A DNA stretch of 64,000 nucleotides from Streptomyces sp. DG2A-72 (GTDB lineage: Bacteria; Actinomycetota; Actinomycetes; Streptomycetales; Streptomycetaceae). Made by a program: the position numbers and the translations under genes. The notes under the pieces are model-generated. The model saw nothing but the letters and a program-made list of their open reading frames with translations. It searched no databases and was not told the origin of the DNA. Shown here piece after piece: positions 3,825 through 23,181 of the stretch (position 1 is its first letter; each line of letters begins with the position of its first letter). The stretch spans positions 7,030,001 to 7,094,000 of the forward strand of contig NZ_JASTLC010000001.1 in NCBI RefSeq assembly GCF_030499575.1. The letters run 5' to 3'.

Positions 3825-4081
3825 AGCGAGCGGCACACCTCTTCGGAGATCCGGGTCACCTGCGCGGCAGTCGCGCCCTCCTGCTGGCTTCAGGCGTAAC
3901 TCGGGCAGACCCTCGGCGTCGTCACCTGGACGACCCGCCACGCCCGCAATCGTCACGAGAGCAGCGTCACCCGAGGTCAGCAGGGAGGCGCGACTCCGCG
4001 TAAGCCGGGTCGCCGGATCGGGTGTCAGTTAAGGTTCGGTGCTGTCGCATGCTGGCCTGTCCGTGGAATCAGGGGACGCCG

Positions 4082-5524
4082 ATGACACAGCAGCTGTGGA
4101 GCAGCCAGAGGCATCAGACCGCGATCGGCCGAGTCGGCCTCTCGCTGCCGGCTCGTCGCGCCGTCGGCGACCTCCAGCTGGAACCCGACACGGGAGTACT
4201 GGACTACGGGTGCGGACGTGGCGGCGATGTACGGGCACTGCAGCACCTCGGCCTCGATGCCGCGGGGTGGGACCCGGTCCACTTCCCGGACGGGCGGCGT
4301 GAGCCGGCCGAGGTGGTCCTTCTCACCTACGTCCTGAACGTCATTGAGGATCCCGCCGAACGACGCGAGACGCTCCTACGAGCCTGGGACCTCGCTAAAT
4401 CGGTGCTGGTCGTGTCCGCGCGGCTGAGGTGGGAGCGCAACCAGATCAAAGGCGCGGAGTACGGCGACGGCATTCTCACGCAGCGCCGCACCTTCCAGCG
4501 CCTGTACGCCGCTGGCGAGCTGCGCGACTACGTCGAGGAGGCCACCGGCGTCCGCTGCGTGTCGGCGGCGCCCGGCATCGTTTACGCGTTCAAGGACGAT
4601 GTGGCCCGCCTGAGTTACCTCGCCCGACAGGTCGCTCCTGACGGGGGGTGGCTGGCGTCCGAGGACACCGCCTCGGCGATCACCTCGGTCGTCGATCATC
4701 TCGAACAGCGCGGCAGGATGCCTCAGCTGGAGGAAATGCCGCAGCCCATCATCAGCCTCCTTGGCCACCTGCGCCCCGCTGAACTCAAGCGCCTTGCCGA
4801 GCAGGAAGCCGACCCCGCGAAGGTAGAACGAAGCGCCGAGCGCGGAGCCCTCGACACACTGCAGTTCCTCGCGCTGGAGCTGTTTCACGGCCGAGGCCCG
4901 GTCAGCAGTCTGCCCCTGCCAGTTCAACTGGACATCCGTGCCTTCTTCCCGTCGTACACCGAGGCGTGCCACCGAGCGGATCGGCTGCTGTTCAAACTGC
5001 GCGACGACGCCTACGTCCGCCGGGCGATGAACGGATCGATCGCCGGCAAGTTCACCGCGACCGCCCTGTACGTTCACCGCCGCGCACTCCATCGGATCCC
5101 GGCCGTGCTGCGCCTGTACGAGCAGTGCGCGAGCATTGCCGCTGGCCGTCCTGGCGAGTGGTCTGTCGTCAAGCTCCGCCATCAGGGCCGCGGGGTCAGC
5201 TGGCTCGACTATCCCGAGTTCGACGCGGATCCCCACCCGCGAATCGCGGCCTCGTACGCCGTCGACCTGAAGACCCTCAAGTCCTCCTTCACCTCGTACG
5301 CGGACTCCACCAACCGTCCCCTGCTGCACCGCAAGCACGAGTTCCTTGCCGAGGATGATCCCGACGCACCCAAGTACCGGAGGCTCACGGACGCCGAGGT
5401 CCGCGCCGGTCTTTACGAGAGCCCGCACCTGATCGGCACAGAAGAGGGATGGGAGCGCGAACTCGTTCGCTGCGAGCGGGAGTTGCGAGGCCACAGGCTC
5501 GTACGGCGCACCACCAGCACCTGA
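4082..5524 (+). CDS. DNA phosphorothioation-associated putative methyltransferase
   Basis: 480 residues from the ATG at 4082. An in-frame start at 4022 adds only a 20-residue Cys-rich leader. The opening (Ile-Gly-Arg-Val-Gly-Leu-Ser-Leu-Pro-Ala-Arg) and the SAM-binding motif Val-Leu-Asp-Tyr-Gly-Cys-Gly-Arg-Gly at residues 45-55 match the family known from gene neighbourhoods of dnd clusters (the TIGR04096 type). Asn-Val-Ile-Glu-Asp-Pro-Ala-Glu-Arg and Gly-Asp-Gly-Ile-Leu-Thr-Arg/Gln follow as in that family. The biochemical role and methyl acceptor are not known. Its presence in the same island as an Ssp-like operon supports a PT link, though it sits 9 kb away on its own. Confidence 0.8.
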   Translation: MTQQLWSSQRHQTAIGRVGLSLPARRAVGDLQLEPDTGVLDYGCGRGGDVRALQHLGLDAAGWDPVHFPDGRREPAEVVLLTYVLNVIEDPAERRETLLRAWDLAKSVLVVSARLRWERNQIKGAEYGDGILTQRRTFQRLYAAGELRDYVEEATGVRCVSAAPGIVYAFKDDVARLSYLARQVAPDGGWLASEDTASAITSVVDHLEQRGRMPQLEEMPQPIISLLGHLRPAELKRLAEQEADPAKVERSAERGALDTLQFLALELFHGRGPVSSLPLPVQLDIRAFFPSYTEACHRADRLLFKLRDDAYVRRAMNGSIAGKFTATALYVHRRALHRIPAVLRLYEQCASIAAGRPGEWSVVKLRHQGRGVSWLDYPEFDADPHPRIAASYAVDLKTLKSSFTSYADSTNRPLLHRKHEFLAEDDPDAPKYRRLTDAEVRAGLYESPHLIGTEEGWERELVRCERELRGHRLVRRTTST

Positions 5525-6531: not shown

Positions 6532-6548
6532 GGCCTGCTCGGCAGGTA

Positions 6549-7453: not shown

Positions 7454-7504
7454 TGTGAGAGACAGTATGGATGAAGCATCGACGTATCAAGTGTTTCTCT
7501 CACA
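7454..7504. promoter_or_regulatory. Inverted repeat upstream of the PAPS-reductase-like gene
   Basis: TGTGAGAGA (7454-7462) and TCTCTCACA (7496-7504) are perfect inverted copies 33 bases apart, about 100 bases upstream of the start at 7349. The arrangement suits a dimeric regulator or a looped operator. No function is shown. Confidence 0.3.
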
Positions 7505-7579
7505 GCTGTCGGCGAACACTGCTTAGCTAGGCGGCATAGCGTCCTGGGGATCCGTCCCAGTCAGGTAGGGAGAGGCCGA

Positions 7580-8227: not shown

Positions 8228-8312
8228 GAGGGGCCTTCCCATCACCTTCGTCTCCGTGGGGTGGCGATGAGTGGGGGAGTTGCTCCGCCGCCCTACGCCG
8301 TGCACGCAGATC

Positions 8313-9209
8313 TTAGGTGTGCTCCCGTCCTGGCCGCAGCTCCCACGAGCCCACCTCGGTGTAATAGCGGCCGAAGTGCTGCAACCAGGCCGCGAGGGTC
8401 TCCGTCGTCCTCCGTGCCTGGTCTTCCGGGTCTCCTGTCCGGTCCACGATGGCCTTCTCGAGCTCGATGTTGCTGAGGCGCTCGCCGACGAGCAGCTTGT
8501 GGAGTTCTGGGATGGCGTGCAGCCGAGCTTCGACCGCCGCGTTGAAGTCGTGCTCCGCCAAACCTGCCGGGACATCGAGCATGGCAAGGTCCTGGATGAT
8601 GCCGGCCTCAACCGGCGAGGTGAATCGCGTTCGCCCGCTGTAGAGCGCGAACACGTTCTCCGGGCGCCTCGTCTCCGGGTACCAAAGGGGGGCGGGTCCA
8701 CCCTCGGCCGGGGGCGCGATGCGTTCCTCCTTCAGAAGTTCTGCCTGCTTCCGGACAAGGGCGGCCACCACGGGTGTGGCCGCTGTCGAGCGGGACTCGA
8801 TCAGACTGAGAACGCGCTGCACTTCGAGATGCGTGACGGGCGCATCCAGCAAGAGCTCCACGTTGGCGTTGGGGACTCGGCCGGTGGCCTTGCCGGTCAG
8901 GTTCGCGGATCCGACCAGGCATCGGTCGTCGGCGACGTAGATCTTGGCATGCAGCGAGGGGCAGAGAGTGATCTGCACGCGTTCGTCCCGCTCCGCCGCC
9001 TCGATGATCTCGGGATCGGAGACTCCGGCGGCTACCTCCGCCGGAGTCCAGCGCGTGACGCATTCGATCGTCTCCACCGAGGCCGGCACCGAGGCAAGGA
9101 TTTCCTCAAAGACGGCCTTCTTGATGAAGGGCGCCACGAGGATCACTCGCGCGGTGGCGCCCTTCACCAGGTCGGCTATCTGCTGCCAGACGTGGTCCGG
9201 CTGCGTCAC
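8313..9209 (-). CDS. Phospholipase-D-superfamily nuclease
   Basis: 298 residues. A single HKD motif lies at residues 87-103: His87-x-Lys89, Asp94, Gly100-Ser101, Asn103. The preceding Arg-Val-Ile-Leu-Val-Ala-Pro-Phe strand is typical of PLD folds such as BfiI, DrmC and other restriction nucleases, so it probably acts as a dimer. The start at 9209 overlaps the stop of the upstream GHKL gene by 4 bases, showing coupling. Within the operon it is the likely DNA-cutting subunit. The C-terminal half is helical with no domain that I know. Assignment as the nuclease of a PT-dependent restriction module is inference from context. Confidence 0.8.
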   Translation of the reverse strand: MTQPDHVWQQIADLVKGATARVILVAPFIKKAVFEEILASVPASVETIECVTRWTPAEVAAGVSDPEIIEAAERDERVQITLCPSLHAKIYVADDRCLVGSANLTGKATGRVPNANVELLLDAPVTHLEVQRVLSLIESRSTAATPVVAALVRKQAELLKEERIAPPAEGGPAPLWYPETRRPENVFALYSGRTRFTSPVEAGIIQDLAMLDVPAGLAEHDFNAAVEARLHAIPELHKLLVGERLSNIELEKAIVDRTGDPEDQARRTTETLAAWLQHFGRYYTEVGSWELRPGREHT

Positions 9210-11101
9210 TCGTCATCGCTCCCGTCTTCGATGAAGTCACGGGCGTAACGGCCCCAGTCGCGCCGGGCGTCCGAGATCCTGGCGCGGTCCCGCTTGTTGG
9301 GGATCTCGTCCTCCATACGGGCCCAGGAGAAGACGAGGAGTTTGAAGGTGTCGGAAGCGCGGGTCAGGCGTTGGCGGAGTTCAGTCTCACTCGCGTCTTC
9401 GGGCACGTCTTCAAGGACGGTCATCAGCTCGCTGTGCAGCGGGTGTTCGGTGTTGAAGATCACCTGCAGCATGCCGGCCATGAGGTCGATGTTGAAGAAC
9501 GCCGTGGAGTCCTGCGGGCTGGAGATCCAGCGGACACGCCAGTCTTTCTCAAGCGCCTCGTCGACCATGGACTGGGCGGTGTCCTCGTCGAGGTGATGCC
9601 GCTCGGTGAGCGCCGCGAACTGCTCCTGGCGCTTGTCGTTCTCGGTGGCTTCCTCTGCCAGGCGGTCGGTCGTTCCCGTGTGGCCGTCCTCCTGCCGGCG
9701 CTTCACCGCGTCCGTGGCCTTGGACGTGACTACGTCGTCGTGGCGCTTCTTGCCTCCCCGGTTGCCCAGCGTGTGCTGCTTCAGCTTCCGCCGCATTTTG
9801 GGCAGGAGGTTCTTCTCCAGGTAGAGCGCAAGATCGATCAGGGGCAGGCGCGGGTCGCCGAATTCGGCGATGCGGTCCTTGAACGCCTTGGGCGTCTCGT
9901 CCCCCTCGGCCTCGGCCGTCCAGTCGAAGTGGGCGAGAGACGAGAAGACCGTGGCGGTCTGCTTGTTGTTCGTGACGCCGAAGATGTCGTCGAGCTCCGG
10001 GGGGAATTCCACCTCGATGCCCCACCAGCGCTCGACGGGGTCGTACCCGATGGCCCACTTGGAATCGAGGTCAAGCTCGCGCCCCTGCCGGACCAGGGAA
10101 ATCCCGATGTTCCGACGAGCATGCTGACCCCACGGGTGGAAACCGGCGTCGCGGTTGGGGTTCGCGTTGTCGGGCCACGGGTGACCTTCGACGTCGGCGC
10201 GGCGGGCCTCGGGCCGGGCGATGGATGCCCGCACCTTCACGTTGTGCTTCGTCCCGTCGACCGTGATCGGGAAGTTGGCGACCCCGGGTTCCTTCTCGTT
10301 GCCCATGTCGAAGGGCTCGAACATGGGCTTGTTCCCGAACGGCGGCGGCGTCCCGGTTGAGTCCATCAGGTACAGGGGATCGTTGGGCTCGGCGAAGTAC
10401 GCCCCGTTGTCCCCTTCGAGGACCTTTCCTTCGCGGACCGGCGCCATCTTGATCTCCACCTTGCCGTCGTGGAGGTAGTGCCGGTACACACGGCCGATCA
10501 GCTCAGCAGTGTTCCGCAGGGTGGCGCCGGCGCCGTGCCATTTGACTCGGTCAAGGTCCGACCAGACCACGAGGGTGCCGGTGGTGCCCAGCGGTGCCTC
10601 GCTGAGGTCGCTCCAGTACTCCGGCACGGGGCGGTGTACGGGACTGGGGACGTCGTCGAGTCCGCCGTTGATCTCCTCAAGATCGAGGTAGGTGTACATG
10701 GCGTTCGGGGACCCATTGGTCCAGGACCAGACCTCGACCTTGGTGCACTGGGACATACTGGAGTTGGGCAGCCCCATGCCGAAGCGCCCGATGCGGTTGC
10801 GGTCGCCCCCGAGGCCATCGCCGTACTTCAGGGCGCGCCGCAGGAGTTCGGCGTCCATGCCCTTGCCGTTGTCGAGGACGGCTATGGCGTCCACCCGGTG
10901 CCTCGTCTGGGTGGCGCCCTGCACCGGGCTCTCACAGGCGAAGACCTGAACCAGTGTGGCTTCCGCGTCGATGCTGTTGTCGATCAGCTCGGCGAGCGCG
11001 TAGGCGGTGTTCTTGTAGCCGCTGTCGCGCATGGCCTTGACGGTCAGCGAAGGGCTGACGATCCGGTATTTGCTTCCCTCGCCGGTCACGCGGTCTCCCA
11101 T
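9206..11101 (-). CDS. GHKL (HSP90-type) ATPase, PT-associated effector candidate
   Basis: 631 residues from the ATG at 11101, which overlaps the helicase stop by 16 bases; a GTG overlapping by 4 is also possible. The ATP-binding Bergerat motifs are clear: Glu-Leu-Ile-Asp-Asn-Ser-Ile-Asp-Ala (residues 38-46), Val-Leu-Asp-Asn-Gly-Lys-Gly-Met-Asp (about 72-80) and Gly-Arg-Phe-Gly-Met-Gly (about 100). A Lys/Arg-rich stretch follows the middle domain. Such MORC/HSP90-like ATPases occur in several defence systems together with a helicase and a nuclease. The order helicase, GHKL ATPase, PLD nuclease beside an sspABCD operon suggests an SspFGH-like module. I do not assign individual letters. Confidence 0.8.
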   Translation of the reverse strand: MGDRVTGEGSKYRIVSPSLTVKAMRDSGYKNTAYALAELIDNSIDAEATLVQVFACESPVQGATQTRHRVDAIAVLDNGKGMDAELLRRALKYGDGLGGDRNRIGRFGMGLPNSSMSQCTKVEVWSWTNGSPNAMYTYLDLEEINGGLDDVPSPVHRPVPEYWSDLSEAPLGTTGTLVVWSDLDRVKWHGAGATLRNTAELIGRVYRHYLHDGKVEIKMAPVREGKVLEGDNGAYFAEPNDPLYLMDSTGTPPPFGNKPMFEPFDMGNEKEPGVANFPITVDGTKHNVKVRASIARPEARRADVEGHPWPDNANPNRDAGFHPWGQHARRNIGISLVRQGRELDLDSKWAIGYDPVERWWGIEVEFPPELDDIFGVTNNKQTATVFSSLAHFDWTAEAEGDETPKAFKDRIAEFGDPRLPLIDLALYLEKNLLPKMRRKLKQHTLGNRGGKKRHDDVVTSKATDAVKRRQEDGHTGTTDRLAEEATENDKRQEQFAALTERHHLDEDTAQSMVDEALEKDWRVRWISSPQDSTAFFNIDLMAGMLQVIFNTEHPLHSELMTVLEDVPEDASETELRQRLTRASDTFKLLVFSWARMEDEIPNKRDRARISDARRDWGRYARDFIEDGSDDE

Positions 11102-12714
11102 ACGTCTTCCCAGTTGGTGAATGCCTCGGCCACGTCTCCGAACCCGGGCAGCTCCGGGTCGACGACGGTGACGATCTCGCAGGTGGCGGTTCCGCCGGCC
11201 TTGGGGCCGCGGATGACCCGGCCGACCATCTGGCTGTACAGGACCAGCGACTTGGTCGGTCGGGCGATGACGGCAGCACTGGCCGCCGGGGCATCGAAGC
11301 CTGTGGTCAGGACCCCGAAGTTGCACAGAATCATGGGGCGTCGGCCGGCGCCCTTGAAGCGTCTGATGGCATCGTTCCGGTGCCGGGGAGAGGACTCGCC
11401 GGTGACGAAGTCGGCATCGAGGCCGAGCGCCGACAGGACGGCGGCGATCAGGCGGCAATGGTCAACGGAGGCCGCGAATACCAGGATCCTGCGGTGCTGG
11501 CGTTCCAGTAGCTCCAGCACGGTCTGGACGACCTTGAGGTTCCACTGCTCGTCGCTGGCCAGCGACGCGATGATGTCCGACGGGATGTCGAAGGACTTCG
11601 CGAGCAGTTGCTGATCGCGTGCGGACAGATGCAGGCCGGCTTCGGAGGCGACGGTCTTCATGATGGGCTTGGCCAGGTAGCCCTGTTCGATGAGGGCGGT
11701 TACCGGGTTGCTGTATCCGTCGATCTGCAGCATGACCTTCTGGCGGGCGAAGAAGTCCGACAGCCGCTCATCCTGCGTGACGTCCGCCCAGGTCCGGCCG
11801 GGGGTGGCCGTCAGGCCCAGCAAGCTGGCATCGGGGCGGATGGTGAGGGCGTCCACCACTCGCTGGTAGGTCGGCGCGATGATCTGATGAGCCTCGTCGA
11901 AGACTGTGAGAGTGCTGCGCGATGCGAGTTTGCGGAGCAGCTCCGGATCGCTTTTGTCTGCGGAGACGGCCTTCTCCAGCCCCAGGATGACAAGGCCGTC
12001 TGTCAGCGCCTCCACATCGGTGGGCGCCTCACCCCACATCCGGACGACCGCAATCGGACGGTCGCCGAGCTTGGACCACGCGCGCTCGAACTCCGCAGCC
12101 GCCTGCTCCAGCAGTTCCTGCCCACGCGCCAGCCAGACCACGAGCGTGGACTCGTGCTGCCGCAGATGGTCGGCGATCAGGTTCATTCCGGTGCGGGTCT
12201 TGCCCACGCCTGTCGGCAGGTGAAGGACAACCCGCCGCGGCCCGTCGTACAGCAACTCCTTCACGCGTGCGGCTGCGCGCCGTTGGTGCGGGAACAGCCC
12301 GTACTCGGGTTCGGAGTCTTGCCGAAAGAGCGGGGGCAGCGCAGGCGCCCTGTCGACGCTGAAGCCGAAGAACTCCAGCAGCTCCCGCTGTTGCTCACTC
12401 GCCCACTTCAGACCGTTCAGGTAGACCAGGGCATTGGTGCCCGCGCCATCCGCCCCAAGACGTTGGGCAAGCTCTGTCTGCTTGTCGGCGGGCAGGAGCC
12501 GCAGCAGCTCCTCGCGGTCTATCTGATTGGACACGAGCTTCTCGGCGTCCACCGCCACGGCAGCGACTGCTCGGAGCCGCTCATCGCCGGCGCTTCCGCC
12601 GTCGATGAGGTCGAGCAGAGCGCACATGTGCTTGCCGAGCCGCTCGCGGATGTACGGCATGGGAGCGCTGTCCAGCACGGCTTGGAAGGACAGGCCAGGC
12701 GACCACGCTGTCAT
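11086..12714 (-). CDS. SF2 DEAD/DEAH helicase, PT-system restriction-type
   Basis: 542 residues. Superfamily 2 motifs in order: Walker A His-Leu-Pro-Thr-Gly-Val-Gly-Lys-Thr, DEAH box Val-Phe-Asp-Glu-Ala-His-Gln, motif III Gly-Leu-Thr-Ala-Thr-Pro-Gly, motif VI Gln-Met-Val-Gly-Arg-Val-Ile-Arg. The about 150 residues before the helicase core are specific to this protein. Length and layout fit the helicase family reported beside dnd clusters as the DNA phosphorothioation system restriction enzyme (TIGR04095 type), more distantly type I/III restriction subunits. It is the first gene of a four-gene operon that is divergent from sspABCD across a 459-base control region. It probably translocates on or unwinds unmodified DNA for the nuclease. 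Confidence 0.8.
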   Translation of the reverse strand: MTAWSPGLSFQAVLDSAPMPYIRERLGKHMCALLDLIDGGSAGDERLRAVAAVAVDAEKLVSNQIDREELLRLLPADKQTELAQRLGADGAGTNALVYLNGLKWASEQQRELLEFFGFSVDRAPALPPLFRQDSEPEYGLFPHQRRAAARVKELLYDGPRRVVLHLPTGVGKTRTGMNLIADHLRQHESTLVVWLARGQELLEQAAAEFERAWSKLGDRPIAVVRMWGEAPTDVEALTDGLVILGLEKAVSADKSDPELLRKLASRSTLTVFDEAHQIIAPTYQRVVDALTIRPDASLLGLTATPGRTWADVTQDERLSDFFARQKVMLQIDGYSNPVTALIEQGYLAKPIMKTVASEAGLHLSARDQQLLAKSFDIPSDIIASLASDEQWNLKVVQTVLELLERQHRRILVFAASVDHCRLIAAVLSALGLDADFVTGESSPRHRNDAIRRFKGAGRRPMILCNFGVLTTGFDAPAASAAVIARPTKSLVLYSQMVGRVIRGPKAGGTATCEIVTVVDPELPGFGDVAEAFTNWEDVWETA

Positions 12715-13173
12715 CGATTCACCACCCCTGCGGAACAGGGGAGATTTCCCCCAATGTCTGAATGACCGTCAACTTGCGGAGCCCCCGCCTCAGTTCTGTG
12801 CATGCAGAGCTGCCCGCAACTCTGAGTCGCCCCAGAGTTACAGTGCCCGATCACCATAAACCCACGCACTGACACTCGGGTCTCAGCGATTGATATTCGC
12901 AGCTCAGAGGCGCTGATGAAGTGCGGCAGGCCCCATAGAGGATCCCGTGCGGCCTCTGTGCCGATGCCCTTTCCCGATATGGGTTGCAGGCGCTCAAGCC
13001 ATAGGGAACATTAGTTCGAGTTACAGTTTGCGTTCCGGCCGAGCGTCGGTTTCGCGGGCTGATCGATCTCGATCGTTACGATCGCGACTCACTCCTGGTG
13101 CTGCCCCCGGTGCACACGTCCGGGTTCCACCAGGAGTAGATTGTGTGCGGTGCTGAGCGAGACGAGGTGGGGC
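12715..13173. promoter_or_regulatory. Divergent control region between effector and modification operons
   Basis: No gene. AT content rises relative to the flanks. GAGTTACAGT occurs twice as a direct repeat (12835-12844 and 13018-13027). CGATCG-TTA-CGATCG forms a palindrome at about 13070-13084. ACTCCTGGTG (13091-13100) and CACCAGGAGT (13128-13137) form a perfect 10-bp stem with a 27-base loop just ahead of the desulfurase start. These are credible operators or leader structures that would let one regulator balance modification against restriction. Confidence 0.5.
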
Positions 13174-14358
13174 ATGAGGGATGAGTCTGATGGGCCGGTT
13201 TCGGCGTATCTCGACTACAACGCGACGGCGCCAATTCGGCCCGAGGCGTTGGCGGCCGTTATGGACGCCCTGCAGGCCGTCGGTAACGCGTCGAGTGTGC
13301 ATCACCCCGGCCGGGACGCCGCCCGTCGCGTAGAGGTCGCTCGTCGGCACCTTGCTGACCTGCTGAACTGCTCGCCGGGGGAGATCATCTTCACGTCGGG
13401 GGCAACCGAAGCGAACAATCTCGCGCTGCGCGCGGCTCACCGCCGCGGGGCCCGGATTGTGACGAGTGGTGCAGAGCACCCCGCGGTGCTGGAGACAGCC
13501 CGGGATCTGGCCCAAAACGAGCCGCGATCGCTGACCGTCTTGCCGATGCGGGCGGACGGCCTGGTGGAAACCGTGGCCCTGGAGGAAGAGCTCGGCCGGG
13601 GCGACATCGGTCTCGTCTCCCTGATGGCGGCCAATAATGAAACCGGGGTTCTCACCGACCTCACGCCAATCGTCAAGGCGGCGCATGCCGCGGGCGCGCT
13701 GGTCCACACGGACGCCACACAGATGATCGGCCGGCTGCCGCTGGACCTTTCCGAAGTGGACGTCGATCTTCTGTCCCTGTCGGCCCACAAGTTCGGCGGC
13801 CCTCAAGGCGTTGGCGCACTGTTCGTACGACGCGGTACACCGCTGCCGTACAGGCCGTTGATCACCGGTGGCGGGCAGGAGAAGGGGTGGAGGGCCGGCA
13901 CCCTCAACGTGCCCGGGATCGCCGGTGCCGGAGCTGCCGCTGCGGCCGTCAGCTGTGACCTTGCCGACGACGTCGCCCGCGTGACCCAACTGCGCGATCA
14001 GCTCGAGTACATGGTGACCACGGCTGTGGACGGATGCCGCATCAACGGGCAACAAGCCCCCCGCCTGCCCGGCGTGGCGAGCATCACCTTTGCGGGTGCC
14101 CCGGCTGACGCAGTCATGGCCGCCATGCCGCACATAGCCGCATCCGACGGAAGTGCCTGCGCCTCGGGAGCCCCAACTCCCAGCCATGTCTTGCTCGCCA
14201 TGGGGCTGAGCCGGGAGGAAGCAGAGTGCACTGTGCGCTTCTCCCTCGGCTACGCCACAACCGGGGACGAGATCGCCGCAGCCGCCGAGGCAGTGGTGCG
14301 TGCGGTCCACCAGGTGCGCGCCGCCATGGCAGCGACAGCCGGCGCGGCTGCTCACTGA
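13174..14358 (+). CDS. sspA: Cysteine desulfurase (SspA/DndA type)
   Basis: 394 residues from the ATG at 13174, preceded by GAGGTGGGG; a GTG at 13141 would add only 11 residues. It is a NifS/IscS-fold PLP enzyme: Tyr-Leu-Asp-Tyr-Asn-Ala-Thr-Ala near the start, PLP lysine in Leu-Ser-Ala-His-Lys-Phe-Gly-Gly-Pro, and the sulfur-accepting cysteine in Gly-Ser-Ala-Cys-Ala-Ser-Gly near residue 330. It takes sulfur from L-cysteine as an enzyme persulfide and would pass it to the PP-loop enzyme SspD. It is the first gene of a four-gene operon. The same enzyme class serves dnd and ssp systems; the following DUF4007 gene points to ssp. A housekeeping IscS-type role is less likely in this context. Confidence 0.88.
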   Translation: MRDESDGPVSAYLDYNATAPIRPEALAAVMDALQAVGNASSVHHPGRDAARRVEVARRHLADLLNCSPGEIIFTSGATEANNLALRAAHRRGARIVTSGAEHPAVLETARDLAQNEPRSLTVLPMRADGLVETVALEEELGRGDIGLVSLMAANNETGVLTDLTPIVKAAHAAGALVHTDATQMIGRLPLDLSEVDVDLLSLSAHKFGGPQGVGALFVRRGTPLPYRPLITGGGQEKGWRAGTLNVPGIAGAGAAAAAVSCDLADDVARVTQLRDQLEYMVTTAVDGCRINGQQAPRLPGVASITFAGAPADAVMAAMPHIAASDGSACASGAPTPSHVLLAMGLSREEAECTVRFSLGYATTGDEIAAAAEAVVRAVHQVRAAMAATAGAAAH

Positions 14359-14403
14359 CTCCAGCATTTCCCTTTATCTCTTCTTCATTTGAGAGGCCCT
14401 CGT

Positions 14404-15516
14404 ATGGCAGACAGCAGGCTCGCGGAAGCCGCACATTCCAGCTTCGCGCGCCATGAGACCTTCGCCCCCCGCTTCGGCTGGCTGCATAAGGCGTACATGC
14501 GGGTCAAGGAGAATCCGGGAGCTTTCCTCGCTGAAGAGGCCCCGGTCCGGCTCGGCGTGGGTAAGAACATGGTCCATGCCATGCGGTACTGGTCAAAGGC
14601 GTTCAAGCTCACCCGTGAGCACGGGGACCCGTCGGGTAAGACGAAGGCCCAGTACGCCTCCCCTACTTGGGAAGCGCGCTGGCTGCTCGACGAGGATGGC
14701 GCCGATCCCTACCTTGAGGAACCCGGCAGCCTGTGGCTGTTGCACTGGTGGCTCGTGTCGTCGCGGCCGGGCGCCAAATGCTGGGCCCCCGCGTGGTACA
14801 CGGCGTTTCACCTTGCTCCGTTCTCTCGCTTCACCGTCGCGGATATGACGCAGGTCGTGACGCGGCATGTCAACTTCTCCTTCAGTGATGGACCGGTGGA
14901 GGCGTCGATCACCCGGGATGTCGAGTGCCTGACCAAGATGTATGCGCGCACGCCTGTCGAACAGAGCGGTTCCCGCGCCACCTATGAAGACCTCTTGGCC
15001 TGCCCTTTCCGTGAGCTGGACTTGCTGACCTCTGTGGGCACCCGGGGCAAGCAGGAGTGGCAGTTCACCACTGGCACGCGCACCTCTCTCCCGGCCCACG
15101 TCCTGGTCTATGCGTGCCTCGACTATGCCGCCCGCGACACCGAGAGTTCCGGCTCCATCTCCCTGGCGCGGCTTGCCAACGAGCCCGGAGCGCCCGGTCG
15201 GGCCTTCCGGGTCCGCGAGCCTGAGATCGTCGCCGCCCTGGACAAGGTCGCCGTGGGTCGCCCGGAACTCAACCGGGTGGACGCCGTCGGCCAGCGGACC
15301 ATGTCCTTCTCCAGCGATCCGAGGGCGCTCGCCTGGGACATCCTCGACGAGCAGTACGACCACGTCACCCTGCGCCCCGGCTTTCCCACCCGGGACGAAT
15401 GGAGCGCGCAGTACCCGCTGTTGGCCGAAGCAGAGGAGGCCGAGAAGGCCGAGAAGGCTGAGAAGGCCGAACGCAAGCCCCAGGACCACCAGCTCACGAC
15501 TCAGGAGATCGCGTGA
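14404..15516 (+). CDS. sspB: DUF4007 protein, SspB-type PT nickase
   Basis: 370 residues from the ATG at 14404 with GAGAGG upstream. The start Ser-Phe-Ala-Arg-His-Glu-Thr-Phe-Ala-Pro-Arg-Phe-Gly-Trp-Leu is the hallmark of DUF4007, followed by Leu-Gly-Val-Gly-Lys-Asn-Met-Val near residue 45. In SspABCD systems this protein nicks DNA to open a site for sulfur insertion. The C terminus carries a Glu/Ala/Lys repeat (residues about 345-360) that may be a flexible linker or coiled coil. It overlaps sspC by 4 bases (GTGA), so the two are translationally coupled and probably partners. Confidence 0.88.
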   Translation: MADSRLAEAAHSSFARHETFAPRFGWLHKAYMRVKENPGAFLAEEAPVRLGVGKNMVHAMRYWSKAFKLTREHGDPSGKTKAQYASPTWEARWLLDEDGADPYLEEPGSLWLLHWWLVSSRPGAKCWAPAWYTAFHLAPFSRFTVADMTQVVTRHVNFSFSDGPVEASITRDVECLTKMYARTPVEQSGSRATYEDLLACPFRELDLLTSVGTRGKQEWQFTTGTRTSLPAHVLVYACLDYAARDTESSGSISLARLANEPGAPGRAFRVREPEIVAALDKVAVGRPELNRVDAVGQRTMSFSSDPRALAWDILDEQYDHVTLRPGFPTRDEWSAQYPLLAEAEEAEKAEKAEKAERKPQDHQLTTQEIA

Positions 15517-18500
15517 CCACCGCAGCTCCCACGCGGACCTCCCGCATCCCGCAGGACGAGGCAACCCCTCAATTCCCGTTCGGAATCGAACTGGTCGGCT
15601 CCCAGATGCGGTCGACCAACCTCGAACGCGACGTCGAGGACGAACTGCACGGACCGTATGTCGGGGCGAAGGCAGTTGACGTACTGGAGCGCATCGCCAA
15701 CGCTGTCGGCGACCTGCGGCGTCCCCGCGCGTGGTCCTTCACCGGACCCTACGGCTCCGGGAAGTCCACGCTGGCTAACCTGATCGAAGCGCTTCTCGGC
15801 CGCGACGAGGACCGCCGCGACGAGGCTCACCGGATCCTTGCGGACACCAGCCCAGCCCTCGCCGAGCGTCTCGCCACGGCTCGGGCTGAGCGGACGGGAA
15901 CCGGGTTCCTCGGAGCCGTGGCCACCGCGCGGCGTGAACCGCTGGTCGCCACCGTGACCCGTGCGCTGGAGACCGCGGCAAAGCGCCGCTGGGGCAAGCG
16001 CATCCCGAAGAACATCGCCGCAGCACTCGCGGCCTGCGAAGACCCGACGACGACCGGGACGAAGACGAAGCAGGTCATGGCCGCCATCAAGGCCCTGACC
16101 GACAATCAGCAGCCGCTCTTGCTGATCATCGACGAGTTCGGTAAGACCCTGGAACATCTTGCCGGGCACAACGAATTCTCCGGCGCCGAGCACGATCTTT
16201 TCCTCCTGCAGGAGCTCGCCGAGCTCAGCGCCGGGCCCAACGGCCTGCCCGTCTTCCTGGTCACCCTGCAGCACCTGTCGTTCATGGACTACGCGTCACG
16301 GTCCAGTGAGCTCAAGATCCGCGAATGGGCAAAGATCCAGGGCCGCTTCGAAGACGTCACCTTCGTCCCGCACCACGGCGACTCCCTGCAGCTCCTGCGC
16401 CGGCGTCTGGACCACTCCGCGGTCGACGCAGCGGGCCAGGACCTCATCCGCGCGTCGGCCCAGGCATCAGCCCTCGCGTGGAAGAACCACGGTCTGAACG
16501 TCCTTACCGAGCTGGCCAGCGACGACTTCGCCGGCCTCTACCCGTTGCACCCACTGACGGCGATCGCTGCGCCGATCCTGGCGGCGCAAATCGGCCAGCA
16601 CGACCGCAGCCTGTCGGGCTTCCTCAACAGCGGAGAGCCCAACACCGTCCGCGACTCGCTGGCCGCACACTCCCGGCCGGATGCCGAACTCGCCAGCACA
16701 GTGCAGCTGCCACAGCTGTACGACTACTTCCTCAACTCCGGCCGGACCTCGCTGCTCGCGGCCTCCAACGCCGGCCGCTGGATCGAAGTCGACGCGCGCA
16801 TCAAGGAAGCCAACGGACTGCCCGACGCCGACCAGGCGCTGCTGAAGACCATCGGCGTTCTGAACCTCATTGACGCCGACGGCGCGCTCAGCGCCACCAG
16901 CGAGATGATCCACCTCGCGCTCCACGACCCCACCGATCTGACCGACGCGGGCGCTTTCGCCCGCCTTGAGGAGCAGCTCGCCGACCTCGTCCGCCGCGGC
17001 TTCCTCGTCCACCGGGAGTTCAGCGGTGAGTACCGCGTCTGGCAGGGCACAGACTTCGACATCGACGCCCGGCTGAAGGAGATCATCAGTCACCTCGACG
17101 ATGCCTCCATCGTCCAGCGCCTTGGCGCGCACCTCCCCAGCGCTGTGGTCGCCGGCCGCCACAGTCAGGTCACTGGGATGATGCGGGTGTTCCTCACCGC
17201 CGTCAGCGGCCCAGAAACCCGTGAGATCCAGGCGCCGGACGAGCTGAAGGACCCGGCCGATGGACTGCTCGTCTTCCACCTCGGTCCCCGGGACCAGCTG
17301 CCCACCGTCAACTCGACGCTGCCGGTCATCCTCGGAACAACCACCCACCCCGACGTGGTGCTCAGCTCCGCCACGCACCTCATTGCCCTGAGAGAGCTGC
17401 TCGAAGACAAGGAACTCGATCACGTCGCCCGGCGGGAGGTCACCGACCGCGCCGTCCAGGCGGAGGCCGAGCTGCGGGAGGTCATCCAGGCGGCCTTCTA
17501 CCCGCCGACCCAGGACGCCACCTGGGACCTGTGGAACGCCGGACTCGCCCCGGGGACGGACCCCGACAGCTCGAGCCTGCCGGCCCGCAGCCTCAGTGGC
17601 CTGGTCTCCCTCGCCTGCGAGAGCGTCTACCCGCACACCCCGCACATTCGCAACGAGATGCTCGGACGGCACTCACTCACCAGCAACGCCGCCCGTGCCC
17701 GCAGCGATGTGCTGGACGCGATGCTCACCCGCTCCGGCGAGCAGTACCTGGGCTTCGACGCGACGGCCGGAAGATACGGTCCGGAGCGAGCCATCTACAG
17801 CGGCGCGCTGGCCTTCCTCGGCCTGCACCGGGCCAACGGCACAATCCAGGCCGAGAATTCCCCCAACAGCCTGCTGCCGTACGGCTTCTCCGCTCCTGGC
17901 GACGGTCACGAGCACGCTCAGCCTGTCTGGGAGGCGCTGCAGAAGACGCTGGACGCGGCAACCCGGCGTACCAGCCTCGACCACATCATCCGGGTCCTGA
18001 TGAGCCCGCCCTACGGGGTGAAGGCCGGTGTCTGGCCGCTGCTGGTCGTCACCGCCCTGGTGATCCGCCGACACGATGTCGCCCTCTTCGAGGAAGGCTC
18101 CTACCTGCCCCGGCTGACGCCGGATGTCGTCGACCGCATCCTCGTCGCCCCCGTCCGTTTCGACGTGAAGTACACGCCGGTCGGGCAGGGGCAGCGCGCC
18201 AGCGTGATCAAGAAGCTCCTGGTGTCTCTGAAGGTCGAACCACCACGCTCACAGGCACTGCGTAACCCCGATCTGCTGTCCGTAGCCAGGGCGTTGCTCG
18301 AACGCGTCATGGTCTTGAACAGCTACGCCCGCAAGACCAAGCGCATCTCTCCGGATGCACTCGCCGTGCGCAGCGCCCTGGCAAACTCCCAGGATCCGGA
18401 CGATCTGCTCTTCCGGGCTCTGCCCAAGGCGCTTGGCCTCGCTCCCATCGAAGCCGGCACCCGCGCCAACGCGGCAGCCGCCACGGAGTATGTCGACAGG

Positions 18501-19112
18501 CTGACCGCAGCGGCAGACGAGATCACCGGCATCGAGCGTACGCTGAGGGAAGAAGTGGTCGCGGTTCTCGCCGAAGAGTTCCGTCTGCCCGCGACGCTTC
18601 CCGAGCTTCGGTCGACGCTCGCCGCGCGGCTGAATGGCTTCGCCACGGTGTCACTGAACCCGGAGCTGCGGGGCTTCGTCGACTTCGTGCTCAGCGAGAG
18701 CCTCGCTGACGAGGACTGGCTCGACCCGATCGTCGTCCGCCTCACTAACAAGGCGCTCGGAGACTGGGATGACCGGGACGCAGGCATGTTCCCTCGCCTT
18801 GCACGCGAGATGTCCGCATCCCTCGACCGCGTCGCCCACCTCTACCAAGACAGCGGCGAGACCCGCGAGCAGGAAGTAAATCTGGAGACGCGGCTGTTGA
18901 CCTTGACGGACAAGACGGGAGCGGAGCGGCGGACGCTGATCTACGTGCCGGAACAGTCCCGAGGCCAGGCCGACCAGCTCGCGGCCGATGTACTGCAGCA
19001 GGCTGAGCAGGCCCTCGGACCCGACGGCGCTCGGATCCTGCTCGCCGCTCTTGCGCAGCGCGTTGCCGATGGGCTGGCTGTCACAGCAACTGAAACGAAG
19101 GAGGGGGTATGA
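15513..19112 (+). CDS. sspC: Large P-loop ATPase, SspC type
   Basis: 1199 residues starting at a GTG that overlaps the sspB stop. Walker A Gly-Pro-Tyr-Gly-Ser-Gly-Lys-Ser-Thr lies near residues 76-84 and Walker B Leu-Leu-Leu-Ile-Ile-Asp-Glu-Phe-Gly-Lys near 205-215. The overall plan resembles the long ATPases BrxC/PglY of BREX and SspC of phosphorothioation systems. The C-terminal half is mainly helical with no second nucleotide site that I can see. In SspABCD it supplies ATP-driven steps during single-strand PT modification. It overlaps sspD by 4 bases (ATGA). Length and context make SspC the best call; a BREX protein is unlikely since no PglX or PglZ is nearby. Confidence 0.85.
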   Translation: MTTAAPTRTSRIPQDEATPQFPFGIELVGSQMRSTNLERDVEDELHGPYVGAKAVDVLERIANAVGDLRRPRAWSFTGPYGSGKSTLANLIEALLGRDEDRRDEAHRILADTSPALAERLATARAERTGTGFLGAVATARREPLVATVTRALETAAKRRWGKRIPKNIAAALAACEDPTTTGTKTKQVMAAIKALTDNQQPLLLIIDEFGKTLEHLAGHNEFSGAEHDLFLLQELAELSAGPNGLPVFLVTLQHLSFMDYASRSSELKIREWAKIQGRFEDVTFVPHHGDSLQLLRRRLDHSAVDAAGQDLIRASAQASALAWKNHGLNVLTELASDDFAGLYPLHPLTAIAAPILAAQIGQHDRSLSGFLNSGEPNTVRDSLAAHSRPDAELASTVQLPQLYDYFLNSGRTSLLAASNAGRWIEVDARIKEANGLPDADQALLKTIGVLNLIDADGALSATSEMIHLALHDPTDLTDAGAFARLEEQLADLVRRGFLVHREFSGEYRVWQGTDFDIDARLKEIISHLDDASIVQRLGAHLPSAVVAGRHSQVTGMMRVFLTAVSGPETREIQAPDELKDPADGLLVFHLGPRDQLPTVNSTLPVILGTTTHPDVVLSSATHLIALRELLEDKELDHVARREVTDRAVQAEAELREVIQAAFYPPTQDATWDLWNAGLAPGTDPDSSSLPARSLSGLVSLACESVYPHTPHIRNEMLGRHSLTSNAARARSDVLDAMLTRSGEQYLGFDATAGRYGPERAIYSGALAFLGLHRANGTIQAENSPNSLLPYGFSAPGDGHEHAQPVWEALQKTLDAATRRTSLDHIIRVLMSPPYGVKAGVWPLLVVTALVIRRHDVALFEEGSYLPRLTPDVVDRILVAPVRFDVKYTPVGQGQRASVIKKLLVSLKVEPPRSQALRNPDLLSVARALLERVMVLNSYARKTKRISPDALAVRSALANSQDPDDLLFRALPKALGLAPIEAGTRANAAAATEYVDRLTAAADEITGIERTLREEVVAVLAEEFRLPATLPELRSTLAARLNGFATVSLNPELRGFVDFVLSESLADEDWLDPIVVRLTNKALGDWDDRDAGMFPRLAREMSASLDRVAHLYQDSGETREQEVNLETRLLTLTDKTGAERRTLIYVPEQSRGQADQLAADVLQQAEQALGPDGARILLAALAQRVADGLAVTATETKEGV

Positions 19113-19942
19113 CGGATCCAGTCACCCAGGAGAAGGTTCGCCACGTCCTGGGTATCTCAGGCGGCAAGGACTCGTCGGCGCTTGCCATCTACATGCGCGA
19201 TCGCGTGCCGGAGATGGAGTACTTCTTCTGCGACACCGGTGCTGAACTGCCAGAGACGTACGAGTACCTCAACCGGCTGGAAGCGGCCCTCGGTAAGCCC
19301 ATCGAGCGACTCAACGCCGACCGGGATTTCGATCACTGGATGGAGGTTTACCAGGGCACCCTGCCCAGCCCGCAGATGCGCTGGTGCACCAAAAATCTGA
19401 AGATCAAGCCGCTGGAGGAGTGGGTCGGCGACGACAAGGTCATCTCATACGTCGCGATCCGGGCTGACGAGAACCGCCTCGGCTACGTCAGCACCAAGCC
19501 GAACATCGATGCCGTCTTCCCCTTCCGCGAGGATGGCATCGACAAGGACGGCGTGATGCGCATCCTCGACGAAGCTGGCATTGGACTCCCTGGCTACTAC
19601 GAGTGGCGCACGCGCTCGGGCTGCTACTTCTGCTTCTTCCAGCGCAAGCACGAGTGGGTCGGCCTCAAGGAGCGCCACCCCGACCTGTACGACAAGGCCG
19701 TGGAGTACGAGGACAAGGTCCGGTTCCGCCACACGGCCATGAAGGGCCGCAACTACACCTGGTCACAGGGCGAGTCGCTCCCGGAGCTCATAGAGCGCAA
19801 GGATGAGATCGAGGCCAAGCACCAGGCGGCCCTGGACCGCGCGGCCAAGCGCGTCAAGCCGAACAGGCCCCTCCTGGAAGTCCTGTCCGACGCACTTGAC
19901 TCCGACGACGACGAGGCCGGCTGCTCCGTCTGCCACCTCTGA
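19109..19942 (+). CDS. sspD: PAPS-reductase-like ATP pyrophosphatase, SspD/DndC type
   Basis: 277 residues, start overlapping sspC by 4 bases. The PP-loop Gly-Ile-Ser-Gly-Gly-Lys-Asp-Ser-Ser sits at residues 15-23. Cysteines that could hold an iron-sulfur cluster or pass sulfur are in Arg-Trp-Cys-Thr-Lys-Asn-Leu-Lys (about 92), Gly-Cys-Tyr-Phe-Cys-Phe (about 172-177) and the tail Cys-Ser-Val-Cys-His-Leu. By family, it activates the DNA backbone with ATP and transfers sulfur from the desulfurase. It is shorter than DndC (about 500 residues), as expected for SspD. It is the last gene of the operon: a strong hairpin follows 17 bases later. Confidence 0.87.
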   Translation: MTDPVTQEKVRHVLGISGGKDSSALAIYMRDRVPEMEYFFCDTGAELPETYEYLNRLEAALGKPIERLNADRDFDHWMEVYQGTLPSPQMRWCTKNLKIKPLEEWVGDDKVISYVAIRADENRLGYVSTKPNIDAVFPFREDGIDKDGVMRILDEAGIGLPGYYEWRTRSGCYFCFFQRKHEWVGLKERHPDLYDKAVEYEDKVRFRHTAMKGRNYTWSQGESLPELIERKDEIEAKHQAALDRAAKRVKPNRPLLEVLSDALDSDDDEAGCSVCHL

Positions 19943-20376: not shown

Positions 20377-21180
20377 GTGTTCACTGCGTTTGAAACGCGC
20401 GTGCTGAACGTTCGCGAGTACTTGGCGATGGGACGGGAACGCTCCGAGCTGATACCAAGAGTGCCAGGCATCTATATCTGGACGCTTGACTTCACTGATA
20501 TCGGAAAGACAGCACTCGAGCGGGAACCGGCAGACGTATTTTCTGCGGTCCAGACAAGAATCAGTGCGCCCCGTGGTGAGCCACTCGAAGCTGGAATGGT
20601 TGGGCGGTATAGAAATGTCCTCATTCAGGATGTCCCGCCTGAGCTGACGCGTGCTTCAGCTGTCCGGGTGGAAGACATGATAAAGGCTCGCAACCTGCAT
20701 CTTGAATGGGCTTTTCTGTGTGCCACGCTGTTTCAGAGGCCGCTGTACGTAGGTAAGGCCGTCAACTTGTCGGTGCGCCTGAAGACACACATGAAAACGG
20801 ATTCCCCTCTCAGTGGCGAGCTTGAACGCCTGGGGCTGACGGTAAACGACTGCGCGGTACTCATGCTCCCTGTTACATCACCCGACAATATCGCGGAGCT
20901 TGTGGCAGCTGAAGAAGCACGTGCTCGTGCCTTGCGGGCGGCCGGCGCGGCCGAACCGACCGCAAGGAATATCCTCAGCGCAGGAGAGTATGACGGCGCA
21001 GATGAGGACGATGGCGGGGATAACGATATGGACTCCGAAGACGATGACGCTCTCTTCTCGGACTCCGAACTTGACGCCGCGGCATCCCCCGAGTTGAGAC
21101 AGGTTGATCAGCTGGTGCGTTTTGCTGAGTCGCTGACCATTCGCGCCGCCCACCCGTTGCTGAATATGAAGATGGACTAA
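20377..21180 (+). CDS. GIY-YIG-type nuclease beside the ssp operon
   Basis: 267 residues from the GTG at 20377, which has GGGGGA upstream; an ATG at 20365 is an alternative. Pro-Gly-Ile-Tyr-Ile-Trp at residues 30-35 and Leu-Tyr-Val-Gly-Lys-Ala at 123-128 are the two halves of the GIY-YIG core, with Arg134 in the following Asn-Leu-Ser-Val-Arg-Leu helix. Ala-Glu-Leu-Val-Ala-Ala-Glu-Glu near residue 180 can supply the metal-binding Glu. The roughly 90-residue gap between the halves is unusually long for the family. A very acidic stretch (Glu/Asp-rich, about 210-235) follows. The next gene starts 3 bases after the stop. Lower GC than the ssp genes suggests separate acquisition. Confidence 0.65.
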   Translation: MFTAFETRVLNVREYLAMGRERSELIPRVPGIYIWTLDFTDIGKTALEREPADVFSAVQTRISAPRGEPLEAGMVGRYRNVLIQDVPPELTRASAVRVEDMIKARNLHLEWAFLCATLFQRPLYVGKAVNLSVRLKTHMKTDSPLSGELERLGLTVNDCAVLMLPVTSPDNIAELVAAEEARARALRAAGAAEPTARNILSAGEYDGADEDDGGDNDMDSEDDDALFSDSELDAAASPELRQVDQLVRFAESLTIRAAHPLLNMKMD

Positions 21181-21183
21181 CCC

Positions 21184-23181
21184 ATGAGCCTTTCGTCGCT
21201 AAGCCGTCGTCGCCCAGCTTATACCGACCAATACTCCTACGTCCGAGGCGAATACGCCATCGGTGATGAGAAGGTCCCCTATTTCTCCATCTCGATGACC
21301 ATCAGGGAAGCAGATCAGTACCTGCGCCTGGCTCGGGAGCTAGCATTTAGTGACGACGAGCCTGTGAACCTCGAAGAACTGTTTCAGCGAACGGTTGACG
21401 AGGACCGAGCCGCCGGCCCGATCGCTACTTACTTGAGGCAACCCGGCTCACTCAAGTTTTTCAACGCCTTCACCGTCGTCCTCCTACCAGTCGATCCCGA
21501 CAAGGCTGACACGGTCGCTGAAAGTTACATTGAAGACTCAGCCGCCCCGGCCGAAATCCCGGATGGCGATCTTGAGCGTACGTCGATCGGCCCCGTTCAA
21601 ATCGATAATTTGCCCGGAACGGATATCGGGTTCATCCGATGGAGTACTAAGCGTGCTCGTGCCGTGATTCTCGATGGCCAACACCGCTTTCTGGCCCTGA
21701 AAAGGATCCTAGACTCACCGCAGACCAATCTGCTCAAGCCGGATACCACGAAGATTCCTGTACTTCTCTTGGTTCTTGACGAGAGGGCTGGATTCGTTCC
21801 TGCTCGAGATCAGGATAGGCTACTTCATGCCTGCAGGAGCATTTTTGTCGCCCTAAACAAGCATGCCGTGGCGGTCTCAAAGACACGCACATATCTGCTT
21901 GATGATCAAGACATCGTGTCCGTAAGTATGCGCCGTCTCTTGACGTCGGAAGTCGGAGACGGTCGCAATAGCCAAGATTCGATCGATCGAATCCCGCTGG
22001 CGCTCGTCGATTGGCACTCGGATCAGGCAAAATTCGATCGGGGTCTTCATCTTGCGAGTGTCCTCGGATTGCATGAAACCATCCGACAGATCTACCCGAA
22101 TCGTTGCGACGAGTCAGACTATGAGGGGCTGCGCGAATATATCACCAAGGTGAGTGCGCTCATCGGCCCTACAGGTGATTCGCGCTGGTCGGAGCTTGCC
22201 CTGCGTAATAGGGTGAGTAAGTACGAAGACGACGCATTGCCTTTCATATTTTCTGCTGAGGAGGTCTCTGCCGTTGCGGATGCCTTCGCGAGCGGTGTTG
22301 GCCAGGCGATCGTGCGTCCCCTCCTGCAGTTGGAGCCCTACAAACAGCTGAGGGAGGGCTATCAGGCGGCAGGGCTGATCGGCGGCCCCCTGGAGCTCTG
22401 GCTTGGTTTCGACAAGTACGGAAAGCAGGCATTTCAGACCCGCACGGGGAATGATCCGAGTGATCTCGCCCGTAGTATCGCCGAGAATGTGAAATCTGGC
22501 GATAACGCATTTGCCGTGATCTTTCAGCGCGGCATCCTCCTTTCGGCGGTCAGGTTTGATATCGCCCGGTCTGACTTTGCCGGCGAGTGGGAATGTTCAT
22601 CGGATCGATTCGCTGTCCTTGATCGCTGGATCGAACGAATGAACGCACGGGTTGTTGCCCATCTCGCCAACCCTGACTTCTGGCTAGGAACCGGAATTAA
22701 GGGTGACCGCAATGTCAACTACACTAAGGTGGGTGCCAACGGCGTCAAGGGATTGGTTTCCCTTGCGGCCATGTGCCCGATTGCTGAGCTGAGAGGGAAT
22801 GCGGCTGCGCTCGCTGAGGGGGGCATCCCTTCAGAGGCCCTGACAGGCTCTGAACAGCTGGCCTGGAAGATGATCTCAGATCCTGACAGTCCTTACTTGC
22901 GAGACGATCGAGTGATGGCGGACGCCGCAGAGCCCAGTCTTCAGTTTGCGGCGTATCGCTGGCTTGCGCGGCAATTCGAAACAATCGGTCGCGGACGGGC
23001 ACCGGGCGTTGTGGCTGGCGTTACCCGACAGGCGTGCATCGAATATCGAAATGCGGCGAAAGCGTATGTTCAGAGCGAACTCCGTGCATCGGGCGTGTCA
23101 GCTGACGAAGAGGTCGTACTGCAAGGGGTTCTAGTCCTCGGCGCCCGCCGCTTGGCCCAGATCGCGCAGGCATCTGTGTGA
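21184..23181 (+). CDS. DGQHR-domain protein (DndB-like), 665 residues
   Basis: ATG at 21184, three bases after the GIY-YIG stop. The motif Ile-Leu-Asp-Gly-Gln-His-Arg-Phe at about residues 162-169 defines the DGQHR family, which includes DndB, a regulator or PT-linked protein of dnd clusters. Family members carry Ser/Thr-Arg and Asn-Lys-His-Ala motifs further on; here Phe-Val-Ala-Leu-Asn-Lys-His-Ala-Val lies near residue 225. At 665 residues it is nearly twice a normal DndB, and the last about 300 residues are unknown to me. Lower GC and codon use set it apart from sspABCD. It could sense PT marks or control the nuclease encoded just upstream. Function is inferred. Confidence 0.7.
   Translation: MSLSSLSRRRPAYTDQYSYVRGEYAIGDEKVPYFSISMTIREADQYLRLARELAFSDDEPVNLEELFQRTVDEDRAAGPIATYLRQPGSLKFFNAFTVVLLPVDPDKADTVAESYIEDSAAPAEIPDGDLERTSIGPVQIDNLPGTDIGFIRWSTKRARAVILDGQHRFLALKRILDSPQTNLLKPDTTKIPVLLLVLDERAGFVPARDQDRLLHACRSIFVALNKHAVAVSKTRTYLLDDQDIVSVSMRRLLTSEVGDGRNSQDSIDRIPLALVDWHSDQAKFDRGLHLASVLGLHETIRQIYPNRCDESDYEGLREYITKVSALIGPTGDSRWSELALRNRVSKYEDDALPFIFSAEEVSAVADAFASGVGQAIVRPLLQLEPYKQLREGYQAAGLIGGPLELWLGFDKYGKQAFQTRTGNDPSDLARSIAENVKSGDNAFAVIFQRGILLSAVRFDIARSDFAGEWECSSDRFAVLDRWIERMNARVVAHLANPDFWLGTGIKGDRNVNYTKVGANGVKGLVSLAAMCPIAELRGNAAALAEGGIPSEALTGSEQLAWKMISDPDSPYLRDDRVMADAAEPSLQFAAYRWLARQFETIGRGRAPGVVAGVTRQACIEYRNAAKAYVQSELRASGVSADEEVVLQGVLVLGARRLAQIAQASV

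Follow-up and report, generated by a model that had tools for sequence, protein, structure and literature searches.

A GIY-YIG nuclease paired with a large DGQHR protein behind sspABCD in Streptomyces sp. DG2A-72: a candidate two-subunit effector cassette of phosphorothioate-based defence

The described effectors of defence based on phosphorothioate (PT) modification of DNA differ in the sign of their response to the modification, as far as the partly accessible papers cited here describe them. SspE, a single chain composed of DUF262 and DUF1524/HNH, joins a nuclease to a ParB-like domain that carries the QR motif and one of the DGQ type (DGQQR), and is activated by PT (PMC9646914). DndI, which also combines DUF262 with DUF1524 and is encoded with IscS-DndBCDE, is a ParB-like ATPase tied to PT; PT promotes its release from self-DNA, and its nuclease is restrained by the modification (PMC11662687). 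SspFGH is toxic without PT; among 2,678 sspBCD loci, sspFGH was present in 7.3% and sspE in 7.4%, with both in 36 further genomes (PMC8092258). Here we describe two adjacent genes, coding for a GIY-YIG nuclease and a large DGQHR protein, located behind sspABCD in Streptomyces sp. DG2A-72. They occupy positions 20377–23181 of the window, i.e., the whole analysed stretch of 64,000 nucleotides (contig NZ_JASTLC010000001.1, positions 7,030,001–7,094,000), in a host genome of 10.6 Mb.

Some components of this arrangement have been noted before. DGQHR proteins were reported with dnd genes (PMC3226654), and a DndB-like protein was shown to bind ATP and GTP (PMC12704722). URI/GIY-YIG nucleases were found near dnd genes, tending to lie at cluster borders (PMC10853773); unlike for the present pair, neither a DGQHR partner nor a linkage to Ssp is named for them in the accessible parts of that paper. 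GmrSD and BrxU resemble the pair in that a nucleoside triphosphatase (NTPase) of the ParB/Srx fold works with a nuclease, and GmrS and GmrD need not be fused into one protein (PMC4619093). Their target, however, is glucosylated hydroxymethylcytosine, and GmrD is of the HNH type, whereas the nuclease of the pair belongs to the GIY-YIG type. No description of a GIY-YIG and DGQHR pair, or of its linkage to Ssp, was found in the accessible parts of the open-access literature, in agreement with the initial annotation of this DNA, which knew of no such system. Within PT-based defence the pair would be a new form; the kind of system is a known one.

The pair and the modification genes preceding it are as follows.

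13141..14358, + strand: sspA, cysteine desulfurase (PADLOC SspA, 422 bits)
14389..15516, + strand: sspB (DUF4007; PADLOC SspB, 405 bits; PF13182)
15513..19112, + strand: sspC, ATPase (PADLOC SspC, 1352 bits)
19109..19942, + strand: sspD, 3'-phosphoadenosine-5'-phosphosulfate (PAPS)-reductase family (PADLOC SspD, 402 bits)
20377..21180, + strand: GIY-YIG nuclease gene, 267 aa from the GTG at 20377, TAA stop; insertion of about 80 residues separating the GIY strand from the YIG strand, acidic internal loop
21184..23181, + strand: DGQHR gene, 665 aa from the ATG at 21184; N-terminal ParB/Srx-like domain (about residues 26–304) and C-terminal all-helical region (about 305–665)

The Ssp modification set, sspBCD plus the cysteine desulfurase, is complete in the window, and the PADLOC matches to all four proteins bear out its earlier assignment as sspABCD. 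The sspD stop codon and the GIY-YIG gene are separated by 434 bp, and the two genes of the pair are 3 bases apart, as had been noted, with the TAA ending at 21180 and the DGQHR start codon at 21184.

Comparison with a related streptomycete (locus L085) revealed an exchange of effectors at this position. The sspABCD region (window 13122–19942) aligns with L085 at 75% DNA identity, ending at the sspD stop codon in both, and the end of the GHKL gene together with HEL, genes of a divergent run described below (window 10620–12733), aligns at 77%. Directly behind sspD, L085 encodes SspE (PADLOC, 963 bits), and in the window this place is taken by the pair. Two models that match in control genomes detected no SspE in the DG2A-72 genome, and dndC was not found there either. 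A search of this genome with a single distant SspF-position query returned nothing, which is weak evidence, there being no control match for the query; an SspH query matched FtsK-type regions only, far from the window (also weak evidence). The initial annotation had suggested a second, PT-sensing effector in place of SspE. The replacement is well supported by this swap and by the ssp/dnd linkage presented below, while the proposed PT sensing is suggested by the fold and motifs of the DGQHR protein.

The GIY-YIG and DGQHR genes have a GC content of 57.2 and 56.9% (0.62 and 0.61 at third codon positions, GC3), versus 63–68% (GC3 0.78–0.87) in the ssp genes, so the lower GC reported for the pair holds. 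The same contrast with ssp genes is seen in L002, L003, and L004, and in L005 between the pair and its locus. The SspE gene of L085 (60%) is also GC-poorer than its ssp genes. Taken together, it looks as if effector cassettes were acquired separately beside an older ssp core. A terminator formerly placed behind the ssp genes was dropped as evidence: the hairpin at 19967–19989 is no better than chance, the region having 2 terminator-like sites against a mean of 2.0 in shuffled sequences.

The pair is conserved as a unit. A contig scan with a DGQHR alignment over one genome per species (84,980 species) yielded 24 loci, in which the partner was sought with a GIY-YIG profile made from the window protein and its database homologues. 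In every locus but L025, hence in 23 of the 24, a GIY-YIG gene immediately precedes the DGQHR gene; the co-occurrence that was to be checked is therefore confirmed, in most cases with ssp or dnd genes alongside. PT-modification genes are present in the flanking DNA of 20 loci: ssp in 19 and dnd in one (L020). L021 is counted among the 19 for an sspD fragment of 62 aa located at the edge of its contig. The four others are L005, which has none within 10 kb on either side, L011, and L014 and L018, both at contig edges. In the genome of L011, sspBC are encoded on another contig, and in L014 a PT-associated methyltransferase gene adjoins the pair. The genomes of L014, L018, and L021 gave no match to the one SspB model searched. 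The hosts comprise Streptomyces, Actinacidiphila, Acidimicrobiia, Solirubrobacteraceae, Poribacteria, Acidobacteria, Kofleriaceae, Gammaproteobacteria, Spirochaetes, and Chitinophaga.

As a background, the SspB model matches 16 of 394 Streptomycetaceae genomes; at seven of these loci (L091–L097) SspB stands alone, SspC and SspD being unmatched. In Actinomycetota it matches 9 of 396 genomes, two of which (G452 and G660) lack an SspC match. DGQHR alignment A2 matches 21 of the Streptomycetaceae genomes, at full length only in DG2A-72 and G071, both with ssp; the other matches comprise fragments, proteins about as long as DndB, and large proteins linked to dnd. Alignment A3 matches six of the Actinomycetota genomes: large proteins in DG2A-72 and G443 and short ones in G483 and G756, these four genomes all being SspB-positive; the G774 match is a DndB encoded within a dnd cluster, and the one in G661 is weak and doubtful. 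A large or compact pair is carried by four of the nine SspB-positive Actinomycetota genomes.

In G443 the pair is located upstream of sspA. Relative to ssp it is upstream in L120 and downstream in others. On a cyanobacterial plasmid (L130) the genes are ordered sspBCD-GIY-DGQ-HEL-GHKL-PLD-sspA, the GIY-YIG gene being in two open reading frames (ORFs); the cyanobacterial plasmid L131 has a similar run with intervening genes and a split sspC, and no GIY-YIG partner was seen in L132. Among plasmids, the window GIY-YIG protein was unmatched and the DGQHR protein had four partial matches, all cyanobacterial. None of 600 stretches of viral contigs matching a pattern codes for a relative. A distance correlation of the GIY-YIG, DGQHR, and Ssp proteins (12 loci, r 0.70–0.95) was not used, since it cannot tell partners from neighbours.

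By its fold, the product of the first gene belongs to the GIY-YIG superfamily. Its GTG start agrees with that of most full-length homologues, and an in-frame ATG is present at 20365. Residues Y33, G126, R134, and H138 are kept in all 36 proteins of alignment A4, and Y124 and E251 in 35 of them (this alignment leaves out P0028, P0030, P0033, P0037, P0038, P0044, P0049, L002–L006, L016, L018, and L019, whose start is uncertain or which are cut). The Tyr, Arg, and Glu at these positions we take to be the catalytic residues of the GIY-YIG protein, and their retention answers the doubt raised initially about its active site. The protein passes no Pfam or NCBIfam model, and four scanned homologues reach 16.4–20.6 bits for PF01541 (cut-off 22.6). 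A PDB sequence search gave short UvrC matches only, and Foldseek alone found no match at E ≤ 0.001 for the model of either protein of the pair. The long insertion ascribed to the nuclease is present, with about 80 residues between the GIY and YIG strands; its supposed acidic tail is instead an internal loop (about residues 190–235, in part with a predicted local distance difference test score, pLDDT, below 50), located before the last helix, which bears the catalytic Glu. This loop is missing from the 14 aligned rows of loci outside Actinomycetota. The Alteromonas copy (L013, 9221–11771) looks decayed, with Thr at the position of the catalytic Glu and the DGQHR gene in two ORFs.

The DGQHR protein shares its N-terminal DGQHR domain with DndB and related proteins (TIGR03233, TIGR03187, TIGR04172, and PF14072). 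It passes PF14072 (33.6 bits, cut-off 29.1), which covers residues 50–254 only, and scores 51.3 bits with TIGR03187 (DGQHR domain), below the cut-off of 58.85. Identity with DndB was rejected, the DndB equivalog TIGR03233 giving 15.3 bits against a cut-off of 328. Its length is 665 aa, versus 355–380 aa expected of DndB (377 aa in L062), so that the approximately 300 extra residues described before are real; the helical C-terminal region comprises about 360 aa. In a structure comparison with the predicted model (pLDDT 85.9), the best VIA rows were ParB (6.5–6.1), SspE (4.5), BrxU (4.0), and DndI (3.4), the N-terminal domain being closest to ParB. The helical region had no confident match in the comparison list, which was made from the whole-protein model, and a PDB sequence search gave two matches up to E 1, both judged chance.

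The QR, DGQHR, and FxxxN motifs, which DUF262 is reported to have as well (PMC4619093), are invariant in all 51 proteins of alignment A3, which leaves out P0001, P0008, P0010, P0023, L002–L006, and the L060 fragment. Residue 67, just before QR, is hydrophobic in all 51; the canonical DndB proteins of L057, L062, and L020 differ in having Ala there. This is the place of the PT-reading Tyr in SspE (PMC9646914; PMC13251355), and by analogy residue 67 is a candidate PT reader. The pair differs from SspE in consisting of two proteins, in the DGQHR motif, in the GIY-YIG nuclease, and in the unrelated helical C-terminal domain, and neither of its proteins matches DUF262 or DUF1524.

A compact form of the pair was found behind sspD in L066, L121, L122, and L135 (Roseobacter litoralis plasmid pROLI83). 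Its GIY-YIG protein, measured by the ORF, has 176–244 aa, and the DGQHR protein encoded behind it has 417–544 aa. The compact GIY-YIG protein of L066 passes PF20815 (22.9 bits, cut-off 22.4). In L002 the large pair is preceded by a short DGQHR gene for which no separate GIY-YIG partner was recognised. Eight large DGQHR genes on the dnd side in Streptomycetaceae have upstream sequence: a GIY-YIG gene precedes three of them (L062, L063, and L064), a GHKL gene four (L056, L057, L058, and L065), and neither one (L055). All eight genomes encode dndC, and the neighbours in L062 pass the DndB, DndC, and DndD equivalogs. Because the upstream partner varies in this way beside dnd, the DGQHR protein may be the fixed component, for which the nuclease is one partner among others.

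Joint conservation of the two genes, their linkage to ssp and dnd, the swap with SspE at one position, the retained active-site residues and the ParB-like fold similarity point to the pair as an exchangeable two-subunit restriction cassette of PT defence, similar to SspE and DndI but with the activities on separate proteins; we assign this reading a probability of about 0.55. In the proposed mechanism SspABCD would mark host DNA with PT, and the DGQHR protein, putatively an NTPase of the ParB/Srx type whose C-terminal domain is helical, would form a complex with the nuclease, read the presence or absence of PT and hydrolyse NTP. Its state would then switch on, or release, the GIY-YIG nuclease, which would nick or cut phage DNA and thus confer phage resistance. 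PT could activate the nuclease, as in SspE, or restrain it, as in DndI and SspFGH; by analogy both signs are possible, because the published effectors differ in sign.

Alternatively, the DGQHR protein could be a DndB-like regulator limiting or tuning PT modification, with the GIY-YIG protein serving independently as a backup (suicide) nuclease blind to PT. The literature describes DndB as a repressor that depends on ATP, standalone URI/GIY-YIG nucleases of dnd borders have been proposed as suicide effectors (PMC10853773), and PF14072 is passed. Such a division of roles is unlikely given the failed DndB equivalog and the presence of both a true DndB and a large DGQHR protein in the fetched stretches of seven dnd loci; moreover, the direct adjacency of both genes in 23 of 24 loci would be needless for a border gene.

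The pair might also work on its own as a type IV-like nuclease that attacks incoming modified DNA, merely co-resident with ssp or dnd in defence islands; an independent modification-dependent nuclease was the other option given in the initial annotation. GmrSD and BrxU are type IV enzymes of a related fold, and L005 lacks PT genes nearby. In addition, a streptomycete (G170; L067, 9273–11020) has, beside integrase-like genes, a compact GIY-YIG ORF whose end overlaps a DGQHR gene for 439 aa, with no ssp or dnd within the 20 kb read. However, dndC lies about 70 kb away in that genome, just as sspBC are found elsewhere in the genome of L011, and PT genes accompany 20 of the 24 loci. A nuclease cutting PT-DNA would, furthermore, attack its own ssp host unless restrained, and we consider this explanation distinctly unlikely.

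Upstream of sspA the window contains an overlapping minus-strand run, HEL-GHKL-PLD, which had been missed before, and a methyltransferase gene.

11086..12714, - strand: HEL, superfamily 2 helicase (RadD-like; PF04851, PF00271), first gene of the run divergent from sspA
9206..11101, - strand: GHKL (MORC/MzaB-like) ATPase (PF13589, 70.5 bits), likely ATG at 11101, overlapping HEL
8313..9209, - strand: PLD-family protein, weakly DrmC-like (PF00614, 28.6 bits, cut-off 21.9; NF038319, 31.6, below the cut-off of 133), 4-bp overlap with GHKL
4022..5524, + strand: PT-associated putative methyltransferase gene (TIGR04096, 515.7 bits, cut-off 150)

The triad is also present beside ssp in nine other loci (L003, L025, L123, L130, L131, L134, L135, L141, and L148), both with and without the pair, and HEL-GHKL occurs with SspE in L085. 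Of 12 plasmid records in which HEL has a match, at least 10 also encode sspD. HEL-GHKL-PLD (8313–12714) looks like a second Ssp-linked module, which may share or own the defence of the locus. That this run is the main effector, with the pair accessory to it or to the modification enzymes, would agree with this recurrence and with the consecutive arrangement of both modules in L130 and L131. It is nevertheless quite improbable, as HEL-GHKL stands beside ssp together with an established effector type, SspE, in L085, and no GHKL gene is present in the flanking DNA of many pair loci. Finally, GIY-YIG domains are common in homing nucleases and the pair is low in GC, but a homing-type or transposon passenger landed by chance beside ssp is very improbable because the partnership with DGQHR persists in different phyla, whether the pair lies upstream or downstream of ssp.

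Several other features lie in or around the island. The TIGR04096 family is present in several pair loci, and in L017 the gene sits between sspD and the GIY-YIG gene. A 313-aa ORF (6549–7490, - strand) has weak similarity to SspD (E about 1e-9) and no Pfam match. A C5 cytosine methylase and a tyrosine-recombinase-type integrase are encoded nearby (28386–29669 and 30692–32869, - strand), and the island with the integrase may be an integrative element.

The frequency of effector types was estimated from plasmids, of which 16 of 68 sspD-bearing records were inspected, besides three taken for their DGQHR match. The pair was present in one of these 16 ssp loci (L135, compact form), FtsK-type SspH-like genes in eight, HEL-GHKL-PLD in four, a longer GHKL protein in four, SspE-like DUF262 genes in two, and BREX genes in one (L137), some loci having two types. 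Because it was found in 1 of the 16, the pair is one effector type among several, uncommon and not a general answer. The longer GHKL protein (about 780–810 aa), annotated as sensor histidine kinase or ATP-binding protein, is encoded with a neighbour gene for about 640–715 aa beside sspBCD in L133 (14834–19088; Acinetobacter baumannii plasmid record), L136, L138, and L147. Ssp is present in 61.91% of A. baumannii genomes, sspE being absent in 5,518 of 5,530, and a histidine kinase is mentioned there in the accessible parts of the paper (PMC12421847); the longer GHKL gene may be the missing Ssp partner in this species. L137 (Thermomicrobium roseum, 4684–18687) has a BREX-type arrangement, in which another DUF4007 gene and then PglZ and BrxL come behind sspBCD-like genes.

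Overall, the chances are about even that GIY-YIG and DGQHR proteins make up a further PT-dependent effector class, a portable two-subunit cassette that serves both Ssp and Dnd and exists in at least two architectures, one with a large and one with a DndB-length DGQHR protein. In it the DGQHR protein would read PT and act as an NTPase switch, and the nuclease would be a separate subunit open to replacement. Some of the sspBCD loci with neither SspE nor SspFGH would be explained by such a class. Seven of 27 homologues are called "DNA sulfur modification protein DndB" by NCBI, a naming that hides the system in annotation. For phage restriction in the remaining sspBCD loci, the pair is a concrete candidate in some of them, across phyla and in exchange with SspE. 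Since sensor and nuclease are separate in the pair, and fused in SspE and DndI, the decision leading from the PT mark to cutting could be dissected.

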